In this document: piece after piece, positions 56,960 through 64,000 of the stretch
Layout: each line of letters begins with the position of its first letter
Numbering within the stretch: position 1 is the stretch's first letter
Source: Pseudomonas asiatica
Lineage (GTDB): Bacteria > Pseudomonadota > Gammaproteobacteria > Pseudomonadales > Pseudomonadaceae
Direction of reading: 5' to 3'
DNA: 64,000 nucleotides
Assembly (NCBI RefSeq): GCF_009932335.1
Contig: NZ_BLJF01000001.1
Coordinates: 1,364,001-1,428,000 of the forward strand
Translations under genes and position numbers: made by a program
The notes under the pieces: generated by a model
Seen by the model: the letters and a program-made list of their open reading frames with translations, nothing else
The model's database searches: none
What the model was told of the DNA's origin: nothing

Positions 56960-57036
56960 CGGGGCGTAGCGCAGCCCGGTAGCGCACTTGCATGGGGTGC
57001 AAGGGGTCGAGTGTTCGAATCACTCCGTCCCGACCA
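56960..57036 (+). tRNA. tRNA-Pro(GGG)
   Basis: The 77-base tRNA has acceptor arms CGGGGCG/CGTCCCG, an anticodon stem CTTGC/GCAAG around ATGGGGT (anticodon GGG), a T-arm TGTTCGAATCA and encoded CCA. It is at the border of the island that follows; I found no second copy of its 3' end to prove integration there. Confidence 0.95.
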
Positions 57037-57076: not shown

Positions 57077-57815
57077 TTCTGGAGTTCTTGGTTTTTTAGA
57101 GGCTTCGCTTGTTTCATTAATCAATCTTGTGATTCGGTTAGGCAAGATAGCTGTGCCCATCGTTTCGCGAGCCTCGTAACTGAGCAGGCGTTTCGTAAAG
57201 GGGTGGGCTACCCTGGTTCAATTCGCTGTCCAGCTACGGATGCTCCCTGCGCTAAGCGATGAGGGGCTGTGTGGGCGAATAGATTTGCGGGCTGAACTCT
57301 TGTGTTGGACCGTAAGCAGCTTGTCACTGGTCGTGCTACGGAGTGCGCGACCTATGCATCGAGAGCGCCGGGGTGATTTTAAACAAGTCGGTATCTATCT
57401 ATTTTTTCTAGTTAATATTCTCTGGGTCAACTTGGTTGGAATACCAGTTGGAACGCAGCGTGATCTGGATTCCGATGGAAGGTGCTTTTTGAGCACTTTT
57501 TTGTGCGGCAGCTAACAGATTGGCACCGGAAAATATCCAACACAGTAATCCATGCGCCCTTGGCACCAATCGGACAGCCAGCTGAAGACAAACAGTCCTT
57601 CAGCACATCTTGGAAAAATACCGTCGGGTCATCCTGTCAATGGGGGCGCAGAGACAGCCAAGGGGTTTCAGTGGCTGTTAGAACATCAGCGTCACGGCAT
57701 CATGGAAGCGTGACGACGGGCCGATCTGCAAGGTGAGCGATAAAAGGGGACAGATTTAGATCTTGCGTTCCGGTATTCAATCAACACCGGAACGTGAGTA
57801 GGCATGGGGGCAGGA
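57077..57815. other. Gene-poor island edge with repeat debris
   Basis: I see no supported gene in this 739-bp stretch of lower GC; a 91-codon frame at 57240-57515 has no RBS or family likeness. GGGGACAGATTTA at 57746-57758 resembles a repeat often seen near REP-associated transposases, and CGTTCCGGT/ACCGGAACG (57766-57794) forms a hairpin. The area looks like remnants of mobile DNA. Confidence 0.4.
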
Positions 57816-59018
57816 TCAATTCGGCTTGGCTACCGTTGCGGCATCCTTGCTTAATACAGGAGCGGCTACATGCACCTTGGCCTCGGACAACGCAATACAG
57901 CGATGTGCGTAGCTGTCGATCTCTTTCAAAGCGATATTTCGGTAGCTAGCGGGACAGATCAACAACGTATCGCCGAAGCGGAACTGACGAAACGCCCTGA
58001 CACTGTACAAACCATTCGGCCCCTCGTAGCTCTCCAGTTGCCACGGGGCGCTACTGAATACCTCCTTCGGATAATCCTTTTCGTTCAACACATAGCTCAA
58101 CTCGGTATTGTCCCTGATTTTGATCAGATTGGCGGCGGAATAGACCCACAGGTCCAAGAGGGCCGGCAACAGCATGGCATTGACGAAGATGCACCCGAGC
58201 AGCACCAGTGCGGCTCGGCCAGTGCGCTGCATCGCATTGCCGTTTGTCAAATAAAAGACGAGGACTGGCGCTAGGTAGAGGCACATTATCAATAAGCAGA
58301 GAGCGATAGCCCCGAATGCCTCTTCGTCGCTCTCTCCGCCTCGCCACGTCATGATGGCTAGCTGGGCGGGCATGACTCCACTCATCGAAGTAAAAGCTAG
58401 CAGCGTACCTAGCCAGCCAACGAGGGCTGTGTAATAGAGTTTGCGATGCAAGGGTTTGCGAGGACTAGGCGGCAGCTCCAGTACTTTGTTGTGCAGGAGC
58501 GCATCGCGGCGAAGCAGAACTATCACGGCACAAGCGGCAGCGACTACGACGATAGGGAAGAAGTAGCCTGGGGCCATGGTGTGATCAAAGAGGGCGCCCA
58601 GCAGGTTGAGCGATAGCAGTAGGTAGCCCCCGCCTACGATGAGGCCAAAGCGTAAGGCGAGTCTCTTTTCCAGCTCTCTATCGACGGTGCATACAGACAT
58701 GCTCAACGTGAAGACCAAAGACGGCACCGATACGATGAGCAGCAGCGACGCGAGTATCAGCAGGTTGAAGAATAACCAGGCGACGAGGTTCGAAGGATTA
58801 CCTAACGAACTAAGGATCAACTCGGGGTGATGGATTACCCAGAGGTACTTGGTGAGGAGTGAGATTGAGATAAGCGTTGAAACTACTGGCAGCCACCATT
58901 TGATATCGGAGAGGAGTTTGAATAGTGCTTGTCGGGGACTGCTGGAGGCGGAGGGGGCGGGCGCTGAAGCGGGGGATGAGCTTTGCTGGTTGGATGTGGG
59001 GGGAGATACGGCTGTCAT
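57816..59018 (-). CDS. Multi-span membrane protein of unknown function
   Basis: The 400-residue protein starts MTAVSPPTSNQQSSSPASAP with a serine/proline-rich cytoplasmic tail of about 30 residues. At least seven hydrophobic segments follow, including WWLPVVSTLISISLLTKYLW and AWLFFNLLILASLLLIVSVP. The C-terminal ~130 residues are a soluble domain (ELSYVLNEKDYPKEVFSSAP to IDSYAHRCIALSEAKVHVAA) likely outside the membrane. I recognise no family. It lies 62 bases downstream of the WYL gene in the same direction, so it is probably co-transcribed with it. Confidence 0.7.
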   Translation of the reverse strand: MTAVSPPTSNQQSSSPASAPAPSASSSPRQALFKLLSDIKWWLPVVSTLISISLLTKYLWVIHHPELILSSLGNPSNLVAWLFFNLLILASLLLIVSVPSLVFTLSMSVCTVDRELEKRLALRFGLIVGGGYLLLSLNLLGALFDHTMAPGYFFPIVVVAAACAVIVLLRRDALLHNKVLELPPSPRKPLHRKLYYTALVGWLGTLLAFTSMSGVMPAQLAIMTWRGGESDEEAFGAIALCLLIMCLYLAPVLVFYLTNGNAMQRTGRAALVLLGCIFVNAMLLPALLDLWVYSAANLIKIRDNTELSYVLNEKDYPKEVFSSAPWQLESYEGPNGLYSVRAFRQFRFGDTLLICPASYRNIALKEIDSYAHRCIALSEAKVHVAAPVLSKDAATVAKPN

Positions 59019-59080
59019 GAGCGTGTGTTCCTTCCTTGAGTGCAGTTTTTGTGGTTATGGGATGCAATGAGCGCGTTGAG

Positions 59081-59953
59081 TCAGTCGTAGAGCCAAGGTT
59101 TCAGCGCGTTCAAGTTGGCGATCACGACCTGCTGCGCTTCTGGCTTAGGGTCCAAGTTCTTGGGGTCGATTTGATAGCGTTGCAGCACATATTTGACCAA
59201 CGCTTGCCGGCTCGGGATCTCCAGCCGGCCATTCAGCATACCGTAGTCACCCTCTATGATCGCCTTCTGCGCGGCGTCGAGCCGCGGGTCAGGTTCCAGG
59301 ATCACCGATACATCAGTGTTCCAGATTGTATCGCCTTCTATGCCGTTGCCATTGCCGTCCAGTAGGTCTGGCTTGCCGCGCATGCGGCTGAGCACGAAGT
59401 CGCGGTAAGCGCTGTTTTTCTCGCAGTAGGCCCGAACGTGCCAGCGCATGCCGGTATGAATCAGTGTGTGCGGTTCGATCAAGCGAATCTCAGGCTCGGG
59501 ATTGGCCAGCGAAACGTATTCGACCTCTAGTCGCAACCCTTCCCGGCAAGCCCGTAAAAGGGGGCGAAGCACCTCAGGCTGAATGCTGCGATCGGGAACT
59601 TGCAACATCAATGTATGCGCATAGGCGAGCTTCAGCCCTTCGATATGCGGGGCTCGTTCATTGTTCTGGGCAAGCATATCGAGGTAGGCGCTGGCGCTGA
59701 GGTCGATGAAGCGTGGTTTGAAGTGCGGCGTAGGTACGTAGCCTTTGATCCGCTTGTCATATGTCAAGTTTCTGGACGCATGCTCGCTGATGTAGGTGTT
59801 GATGTCTTTAGACGCCTGCTGGCGGCTGATGCCAAAGCTCTGCATCAGGTGCCCCGTGGTCAGCCGGCCTTCCCACCAGGCAACGGTCTCGATCAAACGA
59901 TAGCGAAGTGCCAGGTCCCAGCGTACCTGCTCGATGGATTGCTTGCGTTTCAT
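59081..59953 (-). CDS. WYL-domain transcriptional regulator (BrxR/CapW-like)
   Basis: The 290-residue protein has an N-terminal winged HTH (about 10-70: RWDLALRYRLIETVAWWEGR, FGISRQQASKDINTYI) and a WYL domain (about 125-205) with LRLEVEYVSLANPEPEIRLI, HTLIHTGMRWHVRAYCEKNS and AYRDFVLSRM. A C-terminal helical part completes it. This is the architecture of BrxR/CapW regulators of phage-defence operons, which bind nucleotides or ssDNA and repress their own promoter. An imperfect inverted repeat at 59985-60009 in the divergent promoter region is a candidate operator. Confidence 0.85.
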   Translation of the reverse strand: MKRKQSIEQVRWDLALRYRLIETVAWWEGRLTTGHLMQSFGISRQQASKDINTYISEHASRNLTYDKRIKGYVPTPHFKPRFIDLSASAYLDMLAQNNERAPHIEGLKLAYAHTLMLQVPDRSIQPEVLRPLLRACREGLRLEVEYVSLANPEPEIRLIEPHTLIHTGMRWHVRAYCEKNSAYRDFVLSRMRGKPDLLDGNGNGIEGDTIWNTDVSVILEPDPRLDAAQKAIIEGDYGMLNGRLEIPSRQALVKYVLQRYQIDPKNLDPKPEAQQVVIANLNALKPWLYD

Positions 59954-59984
59954 ACCCTCTCCATGTGCGCGATTACTTTACCTG

Positions 59985-60009
59985 TATAAGTCTACATTCT
60001 AGACGTGTA
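59985..60009. promoter_or_regulatory. Candidate WYL operator
   Basis: TATAAGTCTA (59985-59994) and TAGACGTGTA (60000-60009) form 10-bp arms matching at 8 of 10 positions around CATTC, with a perfect GTCTA/TAGAC core. The site lies between the divergent WYL and membrane coiled-coil genes. Confidence 0.5.
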
Positions 60010-60072
60010 ATTTTGCATTACATATCTTTAGATTGTCTTCGGAATACATCGGGGGCAGCAAAGGATATGAGC

Positions 60073-60333
60073 ATGACGATGGCGGAAGTGGTTGCGACTG
60101 GGGCCTTGGTGGCGATGGGGATCATCCTGCTGGTGCTGATTCAGCAGGCTTTGAGGCTCGGCGAGCTTGGGAAAAAGGTCGAGCACTGCCAGAGGGATCT
60201 GCGCTGGCTGCAGATTTGGGAAATGGAAAACCGCGAGCTGCGGTCGGCGTTGCGTGCAGAGCGGGAGCATGTTGCGCAGTTGCAGCGCAAGTTAGTGATT
60301 TTGCAGGACCTGGATTCTGCAGAAGAGCGTTAA
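60073..60333 (+). CDS. Single-pass membrane protein with coiled coil
   Basis: The 86-residue protein begins MTMAEVVATGALVAMGIILL with one helix to about residue 25 (VLIQQAL), then a charged coiled coil LGELGKKVEHCQRDLRWLQI through LRAEREHVAQLQRKLVILQD. AAAGGA is seven bases upstream of ATG 60073, better than for ATG 60067. It is the first gene of the rightward island operon, divergent from the WYL gene. Such small membrane anchors often organise partner proteins. No family recognised. Confidence 0.65.
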   Translation: MTMAEVVATGALVAMGIILLVLIQQALRLGELGKKVEHCQRDLRWLQIWEMENRELRSALRAEREHVAQLQRKLVILQDLDSAEER

Positions 60334-60341
60334 GGGACGAT

Positions 60342-61394
60342 ATGAACAGAATTGAACGGATCAGCGGCTGCCTACTGGGGGGCGCCGTCGGAGATGCGCT
60401 AGGCTCCCCGGTGGAGTTGCTTGAGTGGCCTGTGATCGAGGCCAGGTTCGGGCCGCAGGGCACCATTGATTTTGCCCCGGCTTATGGCACCGCCGGTGCG
60501 ATAAGCGACGCTACACAGATGATGCTCTTTACCGCAGAAGGCTTGCTGCGGGCTTATGTGCTAGGGAGTTCGCTGCAGGCATGCCATGTGCCCAGCATTG
60601 TTCATCACGCGCTGCTGCGCTGGCTGACGACCCAGGATCAACCTTCGCTGATACCGGTCGCCACAGATGGCTGGCTGATCAGGCAAATGGAGCTCTGGTC
60701 GCGTCGTGCGCCAGACATAACCTGCATGAGTGCGCTCAAGGTCAGCGGACGGTTGGGTATGATTGCCGAAAACAACAGCAAGGGCTGCGGTGCTTTGGTA
60801 CATGTTGCACCCTGTGCGTTCTTTGCCAATGCATTTGACTACGCAACGCAATCCGGGCGCCTGACGCACGGGCACCCGACAGGTTACTTGGCGGCTGGGC
60901 TGTTCGCCGACATTCTGCAGCGTGTTGTCGATCGACAAGATAGCTTGGAGCACGCTGTGACGCAGAGTCTGGCCAGGTATGGGCAGGTGCCTGGTATCGA
61001 GGAAACGCGCAGCCTTGTCGAGCGCGTGATGTTCTTCTTTTACGAGGGATACACACCCAGCCCTCAACGGATAGACGATTTTGCCGGTGGTTGGGGCGCT
61101 GAACAGGTGCTGGCGATTGGGCTGTGGTGCGCGCTGACAGCGCGGTCATTTGAAGAAGGGGTGATTGCGGCGGTTAATCACAGTGGTGACAGCAGCAGTA
61201 CAGGGCTGGTCGTCGGGCACTTGCTGGGGGCGCAGTATGGCGCTGGCGCTATTCCTGACCGGTGGCTTGAGTGCCTGGAGCTGCGGCAGGTGATTGCGCA
61301 GGTGGCTGAAGATATCGAGCGTGTTCCGCGGGAGTACTGCGGGGTGGGGGGCGAGTTTGATGAGCAAATTGAACTGGCTTATCCCGGGAGTTGA
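60342..61394 (+). CDS. ADP-ribosylglycohydrolase-like protein with altered metal site
   Basis: The 350-residue protein has the ARH/DraG fold landmarks GCLLGGAVGDALGSPVELLE, NNSKGCGALVHVAPCAFFAN, HGHPTGYLAAGLFAD and NHSGDSSSTGLVVGHLLGAQ. Two conserved metal-ligand positions differ. Family members read S/T-D-D-T, here S55-D56-A57-T58; they read GDSDS/T, here G282-D283-S284-S285-S286. Loss of one aspartate at each half of the binuclear magnesium site suggests reduced or no hydrolase activity, so it may be an ADP-ribose sensor. It follows the membrane coiled-coil gene by eight bases. Confidence 0.82.
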   Translation: MNRIERISGCLLGGAVGDALGSPVELLEWPVIEARFGPQGTIDFAPAYGTAGAISDATQMMLFTAEGLLRAYVLGSSLQACHVPSIVHHALLRWLTTQDQPSLIPVATDGWLIRQMELWSRRAPDITCMSALKVSGRLGMIAENNSKGCGALVHVAPCAFFANAFDYATQSGRLTHGHPTGYLAAGLFADILQRVVDRQDSLEHAVTQSLARYGQVPGIEETRSLVERVMFFFYEGYTPSPQRIDDFAGGWGAEQVLAIGLWCALTARSFEEGVIAAVNHSGDSSSTGLVVGHLLGAQYGAGAIPDRWLECLELRQVIAQVAEDIERVPREYCGVGGEFDEQIELAYPGS

Positions 61395-61440
61395 ACGCAT
61401 TGAAGGTAGTGAGTTTGCGTAGGGATCAAGGAGATTGAAC

Positions 61441-61641
61441 ATGCCGATCAAACCCAGGCCCCTCACTTTTGAATGTGAAGGGTGTGGTTGGACGAAAACA
61501 GTGGCGCCGCGCAGTGATGCGTTGGCGCCGGGGGAGTGGATTGATCAGTGTCCTAAGTGTGGGGGCAAGGCGTTGAAGGTGCGTACTGCCGGGTGGCTTG
61601 CGGGGGCGGTGGCGGAGTTGCTGGCGCGGCGGCGGTTTTAG
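61441..61641 (+). CDS. Small zinc-ribbon protein
   Basis: The 66-residue protein starts at ATG 61441 behind AAGGAG. It contains FECEGCGWTKTVAPRSDALA and DQCPKCGGKALKVR, two CxxC knuckles of a zinc ribbon. The C-terminus is basic and ends RRRF. Its TAG stop (61639-61641) spans the junction with the IS element; without the IS the next base is also G, so the stop would be the same. It may bind nucleic acid or a partner protein. Confidence 0.75.
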   Translation: MPIKPRPLTFECEGCGWTKTVAPRSDALAPGEWIDQCPKCGGKALKVRTAGWLAGAVAELLARRRF

Positions 61642-62155
61642 GCTCTGTACGAAAAGAGATGTCGCAGACACCGCATGGAACAAGCCAGTGAGACCATGGC
61701 GGCATAGCTTTTCGCGAGCTTGTCGAAGCGCGTCACGATGCGGCGGTTCTCTTTCAGCCAGCCAAACATGCGCTCGATGATGTTGCGCTGTCGATATTTG
61801 GGCCGATCAAACAATCTGGGTAAGCCAGGCTTGGGTTTGCGCTTCATTGAGCGCATCGGGATGACGGGTTGCATGCGGTACTGGTCGCAGTAGCGGCGCA
61901 GCGCTTCGGCATCGTAGCCTTTGTCAGCAAGCAGCCATTTGCAGCGCTTGCGCGGACGACCTCGTTGGCTTGATGGAATGCTGACTTCGTCCAGCAGTGG
62001 CTGGGCGTAGCTGATGTCACTGGCTTGACCGCCAGAGAGAAGGAAGCGCAACGGTGTTCCGTTGGCGTCGCAGAGCATGTGGATCTTGGTTGTCAGGCCG
62101 CCGCGACTGCGGCCTAGAGCGTGATCGGCAGGCTCGTCAGGCCCCCTTTTTTCCC
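61638..62155 (-). CDS. IS5-family transposase, second frame
   Basis: This frame encodes PDEPADHALGRSRGGLTTKI, then HMLCDANGTPLRFLLSGGQA, LLADKGYDAEALRRYCDQYR and RNIIERMFGWLKENRRIVTR, the DDE domain with the second aspartate (ADKGYD) and the glutamate (IIERMF). Its first ATG is only at 62078, but similarity starts upstream, so expression requires -1 shifting from the first frame. The TAA stop is formed by the flanking TTA at 61638-61640, outside the IS. Confidence 0.8.
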
Positions 62156-62587
62156 GGCGCCAGAAGAGGCTCGGGTTGCGCGTACAGCAGTTGAGTCGAT
62201 CATCCAGGTTTGCAAATCGATCAAGCCTTGCTCATTCAATTTCAGGTGCAAGCGTTTGAGCATCTGATCGAACGTCCCCTGGTTTCGCCAGTCCCGGAAC
62301 CGTTGATACACCGTTGACCACGGGCCAAATCGCTCCGGCATATCTCGCCACGCAGCACCCGAGCAGAGCACCCAGAGCACGCCATCGAGCATCAGCCGAT
62401 CACTCAGGCGGGGCCGCCCCCGACCATGGGTTTCAGTGAAGAGATCGGCAACCAAAGCCCAAGCCTCATCCGAGAGTTCGTAACGCTTAGCCATCACAGA
62501 ATTCCTTTCCGTAGATGGCGGATGACTCTACAAAATCTCAGCGTTCAAGGGGCAGCGATCGGGTTTCTCGGGATTTCGTACAGAGCC
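61641..62587 (-). mobile_element. IS5-family insertion sequence (IS427-like)
   Basis: GGCTCTGTACGAAA at 61641-61654 is repeated inverted at the right end (TTTCGTACAGAGCC, ending 62587). The flanking TA at 61639-61640 and 62588-62589 is the target duplication. The 947-bp element contains two overlapping transposase frames read leftward. It has inserted between the zinc-ribbon gene and the small membrane peptide gene. Confidence 0.85.
62114..62497 (-). CDS. IS5-family transposase, first frame
   Basis: The 127-residue frame begins MMAKRYELSDEAWALVADLF and has RPRLSDRLMLDGVLWVLCSG AAWRDMPERFGPW-type DUF4096 text, then WMIDSTAVRATRASSGAGKK. It covers the DNA-binding domain and the first catalytic aspartate (IDST). 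The gene ends after AAAAAA GGGGG, a likely -1 frameshift site (62143-62153) into the second frame. Confidence 0.85.
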   Translation of the reverse strand: MMAKRYELSDEAWALVADLFTETHGRGRPRLSDRLMLDGVLWVLCSGAAWRDMPERFGPWSTVYQRFRDWRNQGTFDQMLKRLHLKLNEQGLIDLQTWMIDSTAVRATRASSGAGKKGGLTSLPITL

Positions 62588-62630
62588 TAGGGTATAGGCG
62601 GACAAGTCGATCAATCAGGAGCATTCAGCC

Positions 62631-62756
62631 ATGAAGAATATCTTTGCCGTTGTCGGTTTTATCGTGATCGCTACCAAGAGTTATGAGCTGTACCGCGAAT
62701 ACAGCGAGATGAAGCGTGAGAAAGCGGCGCGGGAGGCCGCCGCCGGTTCGGTTTGA
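62631..62756 (+). CDS. 41-residue membrane peptide
   Basis: ATG 62631 behind AGGAG opens a 41-codon frame: MKNIFAVVGFIVIATKSYEL, YREYSEMKREKAAREAAAGS and V. It has one hydrophobic helix (about 4-15) and a charged helical tail. The good RBS and amphipathic tail favour translation. It once followed the zinc-ribbon gene by about 50 bases before the IS inserted. Function unknown. Confidence 0.6.
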   Translation: MKNIFAVVGFIVIATKSYELYREYSEMKREKAAREAAAGSV

Positions 62757-62988
62757 CGTGCGCCGAGTTGTGGCATTGACGACCTGTTCGAGGATATCGG
62801 GAAGGCTACGGAGCTGAAAGTTTGTCATTAATTTATGCATTTGCATTCGACCAATGAGTACTACTGGGGCTCTGCCCGGCACTCGGCTGAAAAACCGGTT
62901 AAAGTTACAGCAATTTGCCGGTACTGGATGGAAGATGAATAGGCGCCTCACGGAACATGGCAAGCAATCAGAAACCAAGGAGGAATAA

Positions 62989-63726
62989 ATGCGAACGCAG
63001 GTCATCGTCGAGGATCATGTTCTGCCACAACTGCTTACTTCGGCCATTGAAGCTTACGAAGTGTCACACAGAGCTCATGCTCGGGGTCGAAGCAACAAGA
63101 AGCTCGAGACGTTCGGGTTGCTGTGGGGGTATGCGTTACCGGTGCGCAACGGAGTGCCGGCGCGCTTAGTCGCGGTGGTCGCCACTGTCGAGACCTCGGC
63201 ACTGAGGCACACCGACTGGGTGCGGCCTGATTTCGAGTCCATCGCGATGAAGCGGGATTTCTTCGGCGAATACTGGCCGCAGCTTGAGCTGATTGGTACG
63301 TTCCATTCGCACCCCTACGAAGATCTGAGTGAGGTCAATGACACCAAGGGGTGGCGCGCTTCGGAGGCGGACATGGCGTTTTGGCCGGCCTTTCACGAGT
63401 TCGTTTGCCCGGACATGGATGAGTTGGCGCATCTGGTGATTGCAATCACTGGGTTGGCACGTAAGGGTACTGCCGAACCAGATCGTCTGGCGGGCACTGA
63501 ATACACCTCGGGTTATGTTGTCAGCGCGGACAAGCGCAAGCTGTGGGTCAAGGGTTACACATCTGCGCTGCACGAAGAGATCGACGAAGATGCGCCATTT
63601 GATGAGGCATTCATGGCTGGAGAAATCGAGTTGGAGCGTTCCTACGATGTCTATGAGGATGAAGATGTACTGTTGGAAATACCCTCGCTGGAGGCGCGCT
63701 TCCGGCATCAGCTACTGCGCAGGTGA
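62989..63726 (+). CDS. JAMM/Mov34-MPN metalloprotease-like protein
   Basis: The 245-residue protein starts at ATG 62989 behind AAGGAGG. It has KLETFGLLWGYALP with the catalytic glutamate (E40), GTFHSHPYEDLSEVNDTKGW with H106 and H108, and ASEADMAFW with S125 and D128. These form the complete JAMM zinc site E...HxHP...SxxD. The enzymes remove ubiquitin-like or C-terminal peptide modifiers, and in bacteria appear in CBASS and related defence operons. An acidic C-terminal region follows. No ubiquitin-like or E1 gene is visible in the window. Confidence 0.82.
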   Translation: MRTQVIVEDHVLPQLLTSAIEAYEVSHRAHARGRSNKKLETFGLLWGYALPVRNGVPARLVAVVATVETSALRHTDWVRPDFESIAMKRDFFGEYWPQLELIGTFHSHPYEDLSEVNDTKGWRASEADMAFWPAFHEFVCPDMDELAHLVIAITGLARKGTAEPDRLAGTEYTSGYVVSADKRKLWVKGYTSALHEEIDEDAPFDEAFMAGEIELERSYDVYEDEDVLLEIPSLEARFRHQLLRR

Positions 63727-63843: not shown

Positions 63844-64000
63844 TTATGCAGCCTCGAGCGTTGCCATACGGCCGTAGGGCAACGTGAGCAGTAGTTGATT
63901 CTCTTGCGATTGAATCAGGTGGCGAGCCTTGTCTTCGATACGCTGCAGGACCACGGTTTTGTCACCCATGTTACCCCGTACCAGTTCACGATGTTGGGCA
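63844..64000 (-). CDS. C-terminal end of a leftward gene, start outside window
   Basis: A frame open from the right edge encodes MGDKTVVLQRIEDKARHLIQ, then SQENQLLLTLPYGRMATLEA and A, ending at TAA 63846-63844. It is convergent with the JAMM gene. At least 51 residues are visible. I do not recognise the family. Confidence 0.5.
   Translation of the reverse strand, partial: AQHRELVRGNMGDKTVVLQRIEDKARHLIQSQENQLLLTLPYGRMATLEAA

Follow-up and report, generated by a model that had tools for sequence, protein, structure and literature searches.

A probable BrxR/CapW-type control head with a short operon in a mosaic defence island of Pseudomonas asiatica

Introduction

ADP-ribosylglycohydrolases carry a binuclear metal site and a TH motif (PMC9503650), and operons centred on them are predicted to be the answer of the host to viral ADP-ribosylation, with more than 42% of these operons carrying Nudix or WYL regulators (PMC9503650, section 3.8) and with phosphatases and chaperones as frequent partners (PMC9503650). 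Other close relatives of the locus described here are the systems controlled by the WYL regulators BrxR and CapW. BrxR is a repressor of its own operon with inverted repeats upstream, and 48% of 347 BrxR homologues were found near diverse defence systems, Pseudomonas being the commonest genus with 24 (PMC9122601); both CapW and BrxR are repressors until single-stranded DNA (ssDNA) is bound (PMC13373217). The subject here is a gene block of Pseudomonas asiatica within a stretch of 64,000 nucleotides (C1:1364001-1428000 of its own genome, from here on the window), in which the gene of a WYL regulator is divergent from the genes for a small coiled-coil protein (CC), an ADP-ribosylglycohydrolase-like protein (ARG) and a Zn-ribbon-like protein (ZnR).

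This block, which lies in a mosaic defence island, is probably a BrxR/CapW-type control head followed by a short operon, and the head recurs beside many defence systems. This reading is preferred because of the BrxR/CapW identity of the regulator, the conserved divergent pairing of WYL and CC, a conserved operator-like sequence which in this genome is limited to WYL heads, the variety of neighbours exchanged beside the head and the mosaic origin of the locus. An initial annotation of the block had taken it for a candidate undescribed defence-like island; its gene list holds, with all the open reading frames (ORFs) found and the tRNA-Pro being of the GGG type, but the six-gene set as a whole does not recur and an IS5-family insertion sequence (IS) within it had been overlooked.

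The WYL regulator and its coiled-coil partner

In a search of PDB sequences the WYL protein aligns over residues 12-262 to BrxR (7t8k) with 213.6 bits, and CapW-type structures match it at 155-159 bits (CapW 7tb6 over residues 8-288, 154.9 bits), so the homology covers nearly the full length and the protein was rightly called BrxR/CapW-like from the outset. As in BrxR and CapW (PMC9122601, PMC9122589), there is a wHTH-WYL-WCX architecture, an inverted repeat upstream and a diverse set of defence neighbours. Unlike BrxR in Acinetobacter, where one long transcript starts before brxR, the window WYL gene is divergent from the operon, and it is paired with a small membrane coiled-coil protein that was not found in the descriptions of BrxR/CapW units consulted. 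By analogy it may act likewise, through repression and release on ssDNA or another ligand.

Occurrence was counted in 298 genomes drawn evenly from Pseudomonas, 70 of which have WYL matches at E<=1e-60 and 54 of which have CC. A divergent WYL gene lies within 1.3 kb at 59 of the 65 CC places, ARG follows at 19/65, and a CC match is found at 59 of the 88 WYL places. A further 69 CC loci came from scanning a set with a single genome for each species, using one peptide pattern from the alignment of CC, the records being titled Pseudomonas except for two of Pantoea sp. Ap-967, a title that may be wrong. Here a divergent WYL gene is present in 65, the operator-like sequence in 64, ARG in 32 and a Zn-ribbon gene after CC or ARG in 34, with ARG and Zn-ribbon together in 23 and Zn-ribbon without ARG in 11. 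The ORF caller was simple, dropping the Zn-ribbon gene and shortening some starts, therefore the counts were taken from tblastn. The arrangement WYL-CC-(ARG)-(Zn-ribbon) is seen in dozens of genomes and is beyond chance.

To look beyond the genus, 219 genomes sampled at class level were searched; 2 of them have CC, these being the window's own and one of the same family. Single-sequence tblastn with CC gave no match in the phage and plasmid records, although the WYL/CC/ARG head of a P. veronii plasmid includes a divergent CC, 42% identical over part of its length. The protein has one hydrophobic segment in a hydrophobicity scan, in keeping with its first description as a single-pass coiled-coil protein, and is predicted to lie at the inner membrane with the coiled coil on the cytoplasmic side. 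A motif in the coil, E-N-x-E-L...R-A (E54, N55, E57, L58, R63, A64), is present in 30 of 30 aligned sequences, and this invariance, together with the constant place of CC beside the WYL gene, makes a physical link between the two proteins a reasonable idea.

The operator-like sequence

The region between the divergent genes, about 113 bp in the window, contains the inverted repeat GTCTA-CATTC-TAGAC inside a conserved 32-bp core, upstream of the WYL protein's own gene. Its length is 111-124 bp in 41 of 48 entries (L114 being counted twice, and three being measured to ARG where CC was not found), and mean pairwise identity among 39 unique intergenic sequences is 91% in the 32-bp core, 85% in a 50-bp core, 74% in the WYL-proximal part and 59% in the CC-proximal part.

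Three operator-like matches at up to 3 mismatches occur in the P. asiatica genome, each 5' of a WYL gene, with 0 for a reversed-pattern control. They belong to the window head, to a second complete WYL/CC/ARG/ZnR head that stands with a dynamin-type GTPase trio (C1:9256-11806, equally L101:9256-11806), and to a truncated third head of 235 bp (C1:18866-19100, equally L101:18866-19100) which consists of WYL codons 1-54 and the operator-like sequence before an SNF2-helicase ORF. Across 20 kb of the window's own locus (L002) there is one 16-bp-core site at up to 3 mismatches, against 0.07 expected. This confinement to WYL genes makes direct control of jukBA, Leo and JAMM unlikely, and direct control of the whole island by WYL was rejected on the same grounds, with no second operator-like site within 3 mismatches in the 20 kb and three sites genome-wide. 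The membrane protein gene behind the WYL gene (TM) could be reached by read-through from it, and is perhaps co-transcribed with it.

A second set of WYL genes (L192, L194, L196, L199, L207, L208, L210) has a similar TTTACCTGTAC-type upstream sequence, and there a recurrent, unrelated, VSAQQLAQAYDRNTVAADQQFKGKRF-like divergent ORF stands in place of CC.

The ADP-ribosylglycohydrolase-like protein

Active enzymes of the DraG/ARH type hold their binuclear metal by ligands in the motifs T/S-D-D and D-x-D. The window ARG, which matches ADP_ribosyl_GH with 205 bits, has SDAT where most copies have TDDT and GDSSST where most have GDSDST, with the TH motif kept, so that two ligand sites are changed and the broken metal site reported at first is indeed there. 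It is, however, a minority state and was rejected as a trait of the family; both motifs are complete in 19 of 28 aligned ARG copies (the window's included in the 28, a Plesiomonas homologue as the outgroup, and copies aligned over 300 residues or fewer, such as G148 and L155, left out). The nine copies that have lost at least one ligand are those of the window, L101 (the second head of the same genome), L102, L103, L106, L109, L112, L113 and L127, and they amount to seven distinct sequences, as L102 and L103 are identical in ARG and so are L112 and L113. Different residues are altered, and thus the loss appears to have arisen more than once.

The ratio of nonsynonymous to synonymous substitution rates (dN/dS) is 0.13, 0.18 and 0.20 for the altered copies of the window, L101 and L102, and 0.07-0.12 with a mean of 0.10 in 12 intact pairs (dS 0.1-1). 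The altered copies are still constrained, slightly less than the intact pairs. In the 298-genome survey ARG matches at E<=1e-50 occur in 26 genomes, and a divergent WYL gene stands at 21 of 30 ARG places, a count in which the G148 ARG gene, matched in two fragments, enters once.

Defence genes beside the head

Past the right edge of the window the order is jukB, jukA, an Fe-S-like ORF, a LeoA-like dynamin, a LeoBC-like gene, an ORF with no Pfam match and two GmrSD_N/DUF262 proteins (L002:9844-18061, or 63844-72061 in window coordinates if extended, with jukB to the LeoBC-like gene at L002:9844-14214). PADLOC scores are 427 bits for JukB, 316 for JukA, 151 for LeoA and 31 for the LeoBC-like protein. 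JukA and JukB are described in a review as acting on the early vesicle of nucleus-forming jumbo phages (PMC13282480). With these families following a BrxR/CapW-family regulator the defence island that was first suspected is well supported. JukAB and Leo are directly downstream in this genome, yet they run towards the head operon and have no copy of its operator-like sequence, and they are neighbours and not members of the same unit.

The neighbours of the 65 heads with a divergent WYL gene include Leo/dynamin GTPases (30), MkoA-like (13), PDC-M40B/M09A-like (9) and IetA-like AAA proteins (7), JukAB, BREX and ZorAB-like genes (5 each) and GmrSD_N (1). Some of these labels are weak, with families f7, f19, f37, f54 and f84 scoring 22-70 bits to Leo models and ZorA-like 26 bits; f88, without a PADLOC hit, owes its GTPase label to a visible P-loop, f94, f95, f76, f41, f42, f60 and f118 were labelled from Pfam and not from PADLOC, and f30 and f117 were outside both scans. 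A recognised defence family lies within 8 kb of 49/65 heads against 0/40 control loci (two fixed places in each of 20 genus genomes), a comparison that is partly circular as the families were collected from the head loci, and that shows only that they are not common background. The order WYL / CC-ARG-HTH-BrxA-BrxB-BrxC-methylase is found in 4 of the 69 loci (L241, L244, L245, L255), and L113 has the same BREX order with Pfam scores of 173, 127 and 179 bits for BrxA, BrxB and BrxC. A control module reused before different immune operons is also known in CapK+CapS and CapH+CapP, although these are different proteins and use a kinase or protease switch (PMC13373217).

Mosaic structure of the locus

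Pseudomonas sp. 10-1B matches the left arm of the locus (57767-59690, with TM and the greater part of WYL) at 95% identity, and in it the TM and WYL arm ends in a broken WYL 5' region without CC, ARG or JAMM adjacent. Compared with P. ceruminis BML-PP028 (L214), identity is 97% over 62588-68199, a stretch that takes in the IS site, JAMM, jukBA and LeoA, and it is 88% over 59164-61642; in 50-bp bins it is 0.88-1.00 at 59800-60300, 0.56-0.88 at 59150-59800 and 0.14-0.50 before. To judge from these identities the locus is a mosaic, with the TM/WYL arm and the right arm matching different relatives. Likeness of the left-arm kind extends at least to 59690 and that of the right-arm kind begins near 59800, which puts the junction in this interval, early in the WYL gene. 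As the 10-1B copy is broken at this point, its end is itself no marker of the junction. Among 63 unique heads, third-position identity in WYL lies at 0.66-0.83 within the first 70 codons and at 0.30-0.65 in the second half of the gene, a pattern to which the stronger conservation of the WYL N-terminus as protein contributes in part; it fits exchange around the operator-like sequence, and N-terminal protein conservation or intragenic DNA signals would also fit.

The IS5-family element has transposase halves scoring 139 and 125 bits to NF033580 and perfect 14-nt terminal repeats GGCTCTGTACGAAA, with TA on both flanks. P. ceruminis has the same gene order and an empty site with a single TA, which identifies the element as an insertion, between genes, and the first base of the IS serves as the last letter of the Zn-ribbon stop codon. 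Copies about 91% identical are present in three Pseudomonas plasmid records.

Further features were seen at the edges. Pseudomonas sp. 10-1B (L215) and L132 lack a 241-bp segment of the window (57526-57766), its two flanks being joined directly in them. At 57365-57525 there is a conserved element of about 128 bp repeated near TM and other genes, in nine copies with 88% mean column identity and with one match in an unannotated phage record. A 215-aa family with no Pfam hit (f4) has left short C-terminal remnants at island junctions (L214:6913-6996, L217:13276-13398, L002:14200-14259), perhaps as scars of recombination. The tRNA-Pro was considered as an integration site and is unsupported here, as its 3'-end repeat was not found in the window's own genome; in 3 of 12 other genomes of the genus (G001, G004, G012) the 3' end is repeated 25-71 kb downstream in the manner of an attachment site. 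For the diguanylate-cyclase gene at the right edge, the 18 other genomes searched gave neither a close match nor a shared boundary.

Gene content of the block

The features of the block are collected in Table 1.

Table 1. Features in and around the block, in window coordinates.
Feature	Position	Strand	Remark
tRNA-Pro(GGG)	56960-57036		left of the block
TM, polytopic membrane protein, 400 aa	57816-59018	-	62 bp behind the WYL gene
WYL-domain regulator, BrxR/CapW family (wHTH-WYL-WCX), 290 aa	59081-59953	-	from homology; putative repressor
Operator-like core TTTACCTGTAYAAGTCTACATTMTAGACSTGT, inverted repeat GTCTA-N5-TAGAC	59977-60008	+	between divergent WYL and CC; from sequence conservation
CC, single-span membrane protein with coiled coil, 88 aa	60067-60333	+	first gene of the divergent operon
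ARG, ADP-ribosylglycohydrolase-like, 350 aa	60342-61394	+	Pfam 205 bits; 8-bp gap after CC
Zn-ribbon-like protein, two CxxC pairs, 66 aa	61441-61641	+	weak HMM matches only
IS5-family insertion sequence, 947 bp, two transposase frames, TA flanks	61641-62587	-	foreign to the gene unit
41-aa small protein ORF	62631-62756	+	conserved in some relatives
JAMM/Prok-JAB-like protein, 245 aa	62989-63726	+	232-bp gap before the gene; motif residues
jukB 3' end	63844-64000	-	window ends within the gene

TM has five strong hydrophobic segments at a strict cut-off and about 7-8 long helices in an AlphaFold model of moderate quality (predicted local distance difference test score, pLDDT, 77), which is consistent with the protein of seven or more spans proposed initially. 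It has no Pfam or PADLOC hit and no PDB fold match at E<=0.001. Matches at E<=0.001 occur in 25 of the 298 genomes, six of them at >=79% identity with the own genome included and 19 weak, and a TM-family gene is found in 3 of the 69 CC loci; TM belongs to the left arm of the mosaic and is outside the conserved head. The protein called a zinc ribbon does have two CxxC pairs. The 41-residue membrane peptide stands as an ORF, with a gene directly after the head in 3/69 CC loci, a match anywhere in 12/69 and a copy downstream of the Zn-ribbon gene also in L214, L234, L246 and L123, but its hydrophobic stretch is short and failed a 19-residue membrane test.

Metalloproteases of the JAMM type share the motif E ... 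H-x-H ... S-x-x-D. The window protein, reported at first as a complete JAMM protease, has these residues (E40, H106-S-H108 and S-x-x-D), but its Pfam score of 18.3 bits is below the 25-bit cut-off, there is no PDB sequence match at E<=0.1 and its structure model (pLDDT 34) was too poor for a fold search. JAMM is found in 7 of the 298 genomes (4 at >=87% identity, own included) and in 2/69 CC loci, one a fragment (L249), and it occurs in other contexts, apart from ARG, in L128-L130. To judge from this distribution it is accessory to the block, and JAMM, TM and the 41-aa gene are passengers of the window's recombinant.

PADLOC gave two WYL models on the block proteins and otherwise matches at chance level (JAMM 12.3 bits, E=0.011; a transposase half 10.8 bits), hence the block matches no named system beyond the WYL models. 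Pfam found no BrxC and no BREX methylase or PglZ in the block and 10 kb downstream, and no CD-NTase, as CBASS would have, is among the proteins of the block and downstream scanned with Pfam and PADLOC. No ADP-ribosyltransferase or sirtuin Pfam hit was found in the block and 10 kb downstream, the part of the window left of 57816 not being scanned.

Proposed mechanism and alternatives

By analogy with BrxR and CapW, a WYL dimer would bind the operator-like sequence and repress its own gene together with CC-ARG-ZnR, until the WYL domain binds a ligand of infection or damage (ssDNA for CapW) and the repressor is released. CC would then be made at the inner membrane, and an intact ARG may strip phage-added ADP-ribose from host molecules. 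The window ARG, if functional, is more likely to be a binder of ADP-ribose than a hydrolase, since ligands thought to be needed for hydrolysis are changed. Recombination has probably combined the head with different modules, such as BREX, Leo/dynamin, JukAB and ZorAB-like genes. A bolder version, which we hold to be unlikely, would make the head a portable adaptor, with the operator and first 70-90 WYL codons as a recombination handle that swaps modules on either side, CC as a membrane-anchored partner of the repressor that signals infection at the envelope, giving one type of switch for BREX, dynamin and others, and the altered ARGs as readers of ADP-ribose.

It is very improbable that the six or seven genes together make up a single new defence system with JAMM as effector or activator. 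The whole series WYL, CC, ARG, Zn-ribbon, 41-aa and JAMM does occur in the same order and without the IS in P. ceruminis L214, but this is one of the 69 loci. WYL and CC keep together (65/69) and ARG and Zn-ribbon are intermediate (32/69 and 34/69), whereas JAMM (2/69), the TM family (3/69) and the 41-aa gene after the head (3/69) do not follow; on these counts the six-gene block was rejected as a single system, which leaves the smaller head as the conserved unit. The nearly identical TM and WYL arm of 10-1B that lacks adjacent CC, ARG and JAMM, the other contexts of JAMM, the 232-bp gap before its gene and the single operator-like site in 20 kb point the same way. It is possible, if doubtful, that WYL/CC/ARG/ZnR is instead an ARG-centred counter-ADP-ribosylation system in which WYL senses ADP-ribose or nucleotide products, ARG reverses phage ADP-ribosylation and CC anchors the enzyme. 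Such operons are predicted (PMC9503650, section 3.8), and like them the block has an ARG with a WYL regulator, with no linked ADP-ribosyltransferase, sirtuin or CD-NTase found in it or within 10 kb downstream; a divergent WYL gene accompanies ARG at 21/30 places and 19/28 copies keep all their metal ligands. Unlike those systems the head has CC and a Zn-ribbon protein, with no phosphatase or chaperone partner recognised near ARG (by Pfam, HMM and PADLOC in the block and by Pfam downstream), about half of the CC/WYL loci are without ARG, and ligands are changed in the window ARG and in 9/28 copies overall.

The locus might also be decaying and no longer functional itself, with JukAB and Leo doing the work of the island, a reading which we consider quite unlikely. 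The IS, the recombinant regulator, the changed ligands of ARG with the raised dN/dS of three altered copies and the truncated third head all fit decay, but the reading frames and the operator core are intact, dN/dS is still far below 1 and the IS sits between genes. A number of observations weigh against the preferred reading of a control head with a short operon. CC is not matched at 29 of the 88 WYL places (of 20 examined by tblastn, 4 have weak matches), and ARG was not found after 37 of the 69 CC genes, from which it follows that the head can exist without ARG. CC, ZnR and the 41-aa protein have no accepted family match or known function by HMM searches, the somewhat higher dN/dS of the altered ARG copies would also fit relaxed selection, and function is read from sequence. 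A consensus scan found no sigma-70-type promoter between WYL and CC, thus promoters are placed from the gene layout only. The next recognised gene right of the head is in the orientation of CC in 31/53 loci and opposed in 22/53, so the head cannot drive all its neighbours. Lastly, correlations of segment distances among 20 heads decay along the operon with no unique breakpoint at the operator (WYL halves 0.83, WYL_N-CC 0.69, CC-ARG_N 0.61, ARG halves 0.92, ARG_C-ZnR 0.48); with this gradual fall, recombination is not confined to one point, and the operator as a single crossover point is not supported, though the window's own junction lies near it.

Significance

A candidate undescribed system had been proposed for this block. 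Part of it was known already, as the pairing of WYL with ARG was predicted (PMC9503650) and BrxR is described beside diverse defences, and the CC partner is apparently new as far as the literature was searched; no description of the CC head was found in literature on ARG, WYL, BREX and defence islands, with most subscription journals and supplements outside the search. Most defence systems have been found one at a time, and less is known of the ways in which islands are turned on and reshuffled. With a near-constant head and changing neighbours, one promoter, one regulator and one small protein become testable across many systems, and the head offers a search handle for new Pseudomonas defence genes beside it. 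The repeated change of ARG ligands offers a test case for an immune enzyme that may be turning into a reader.

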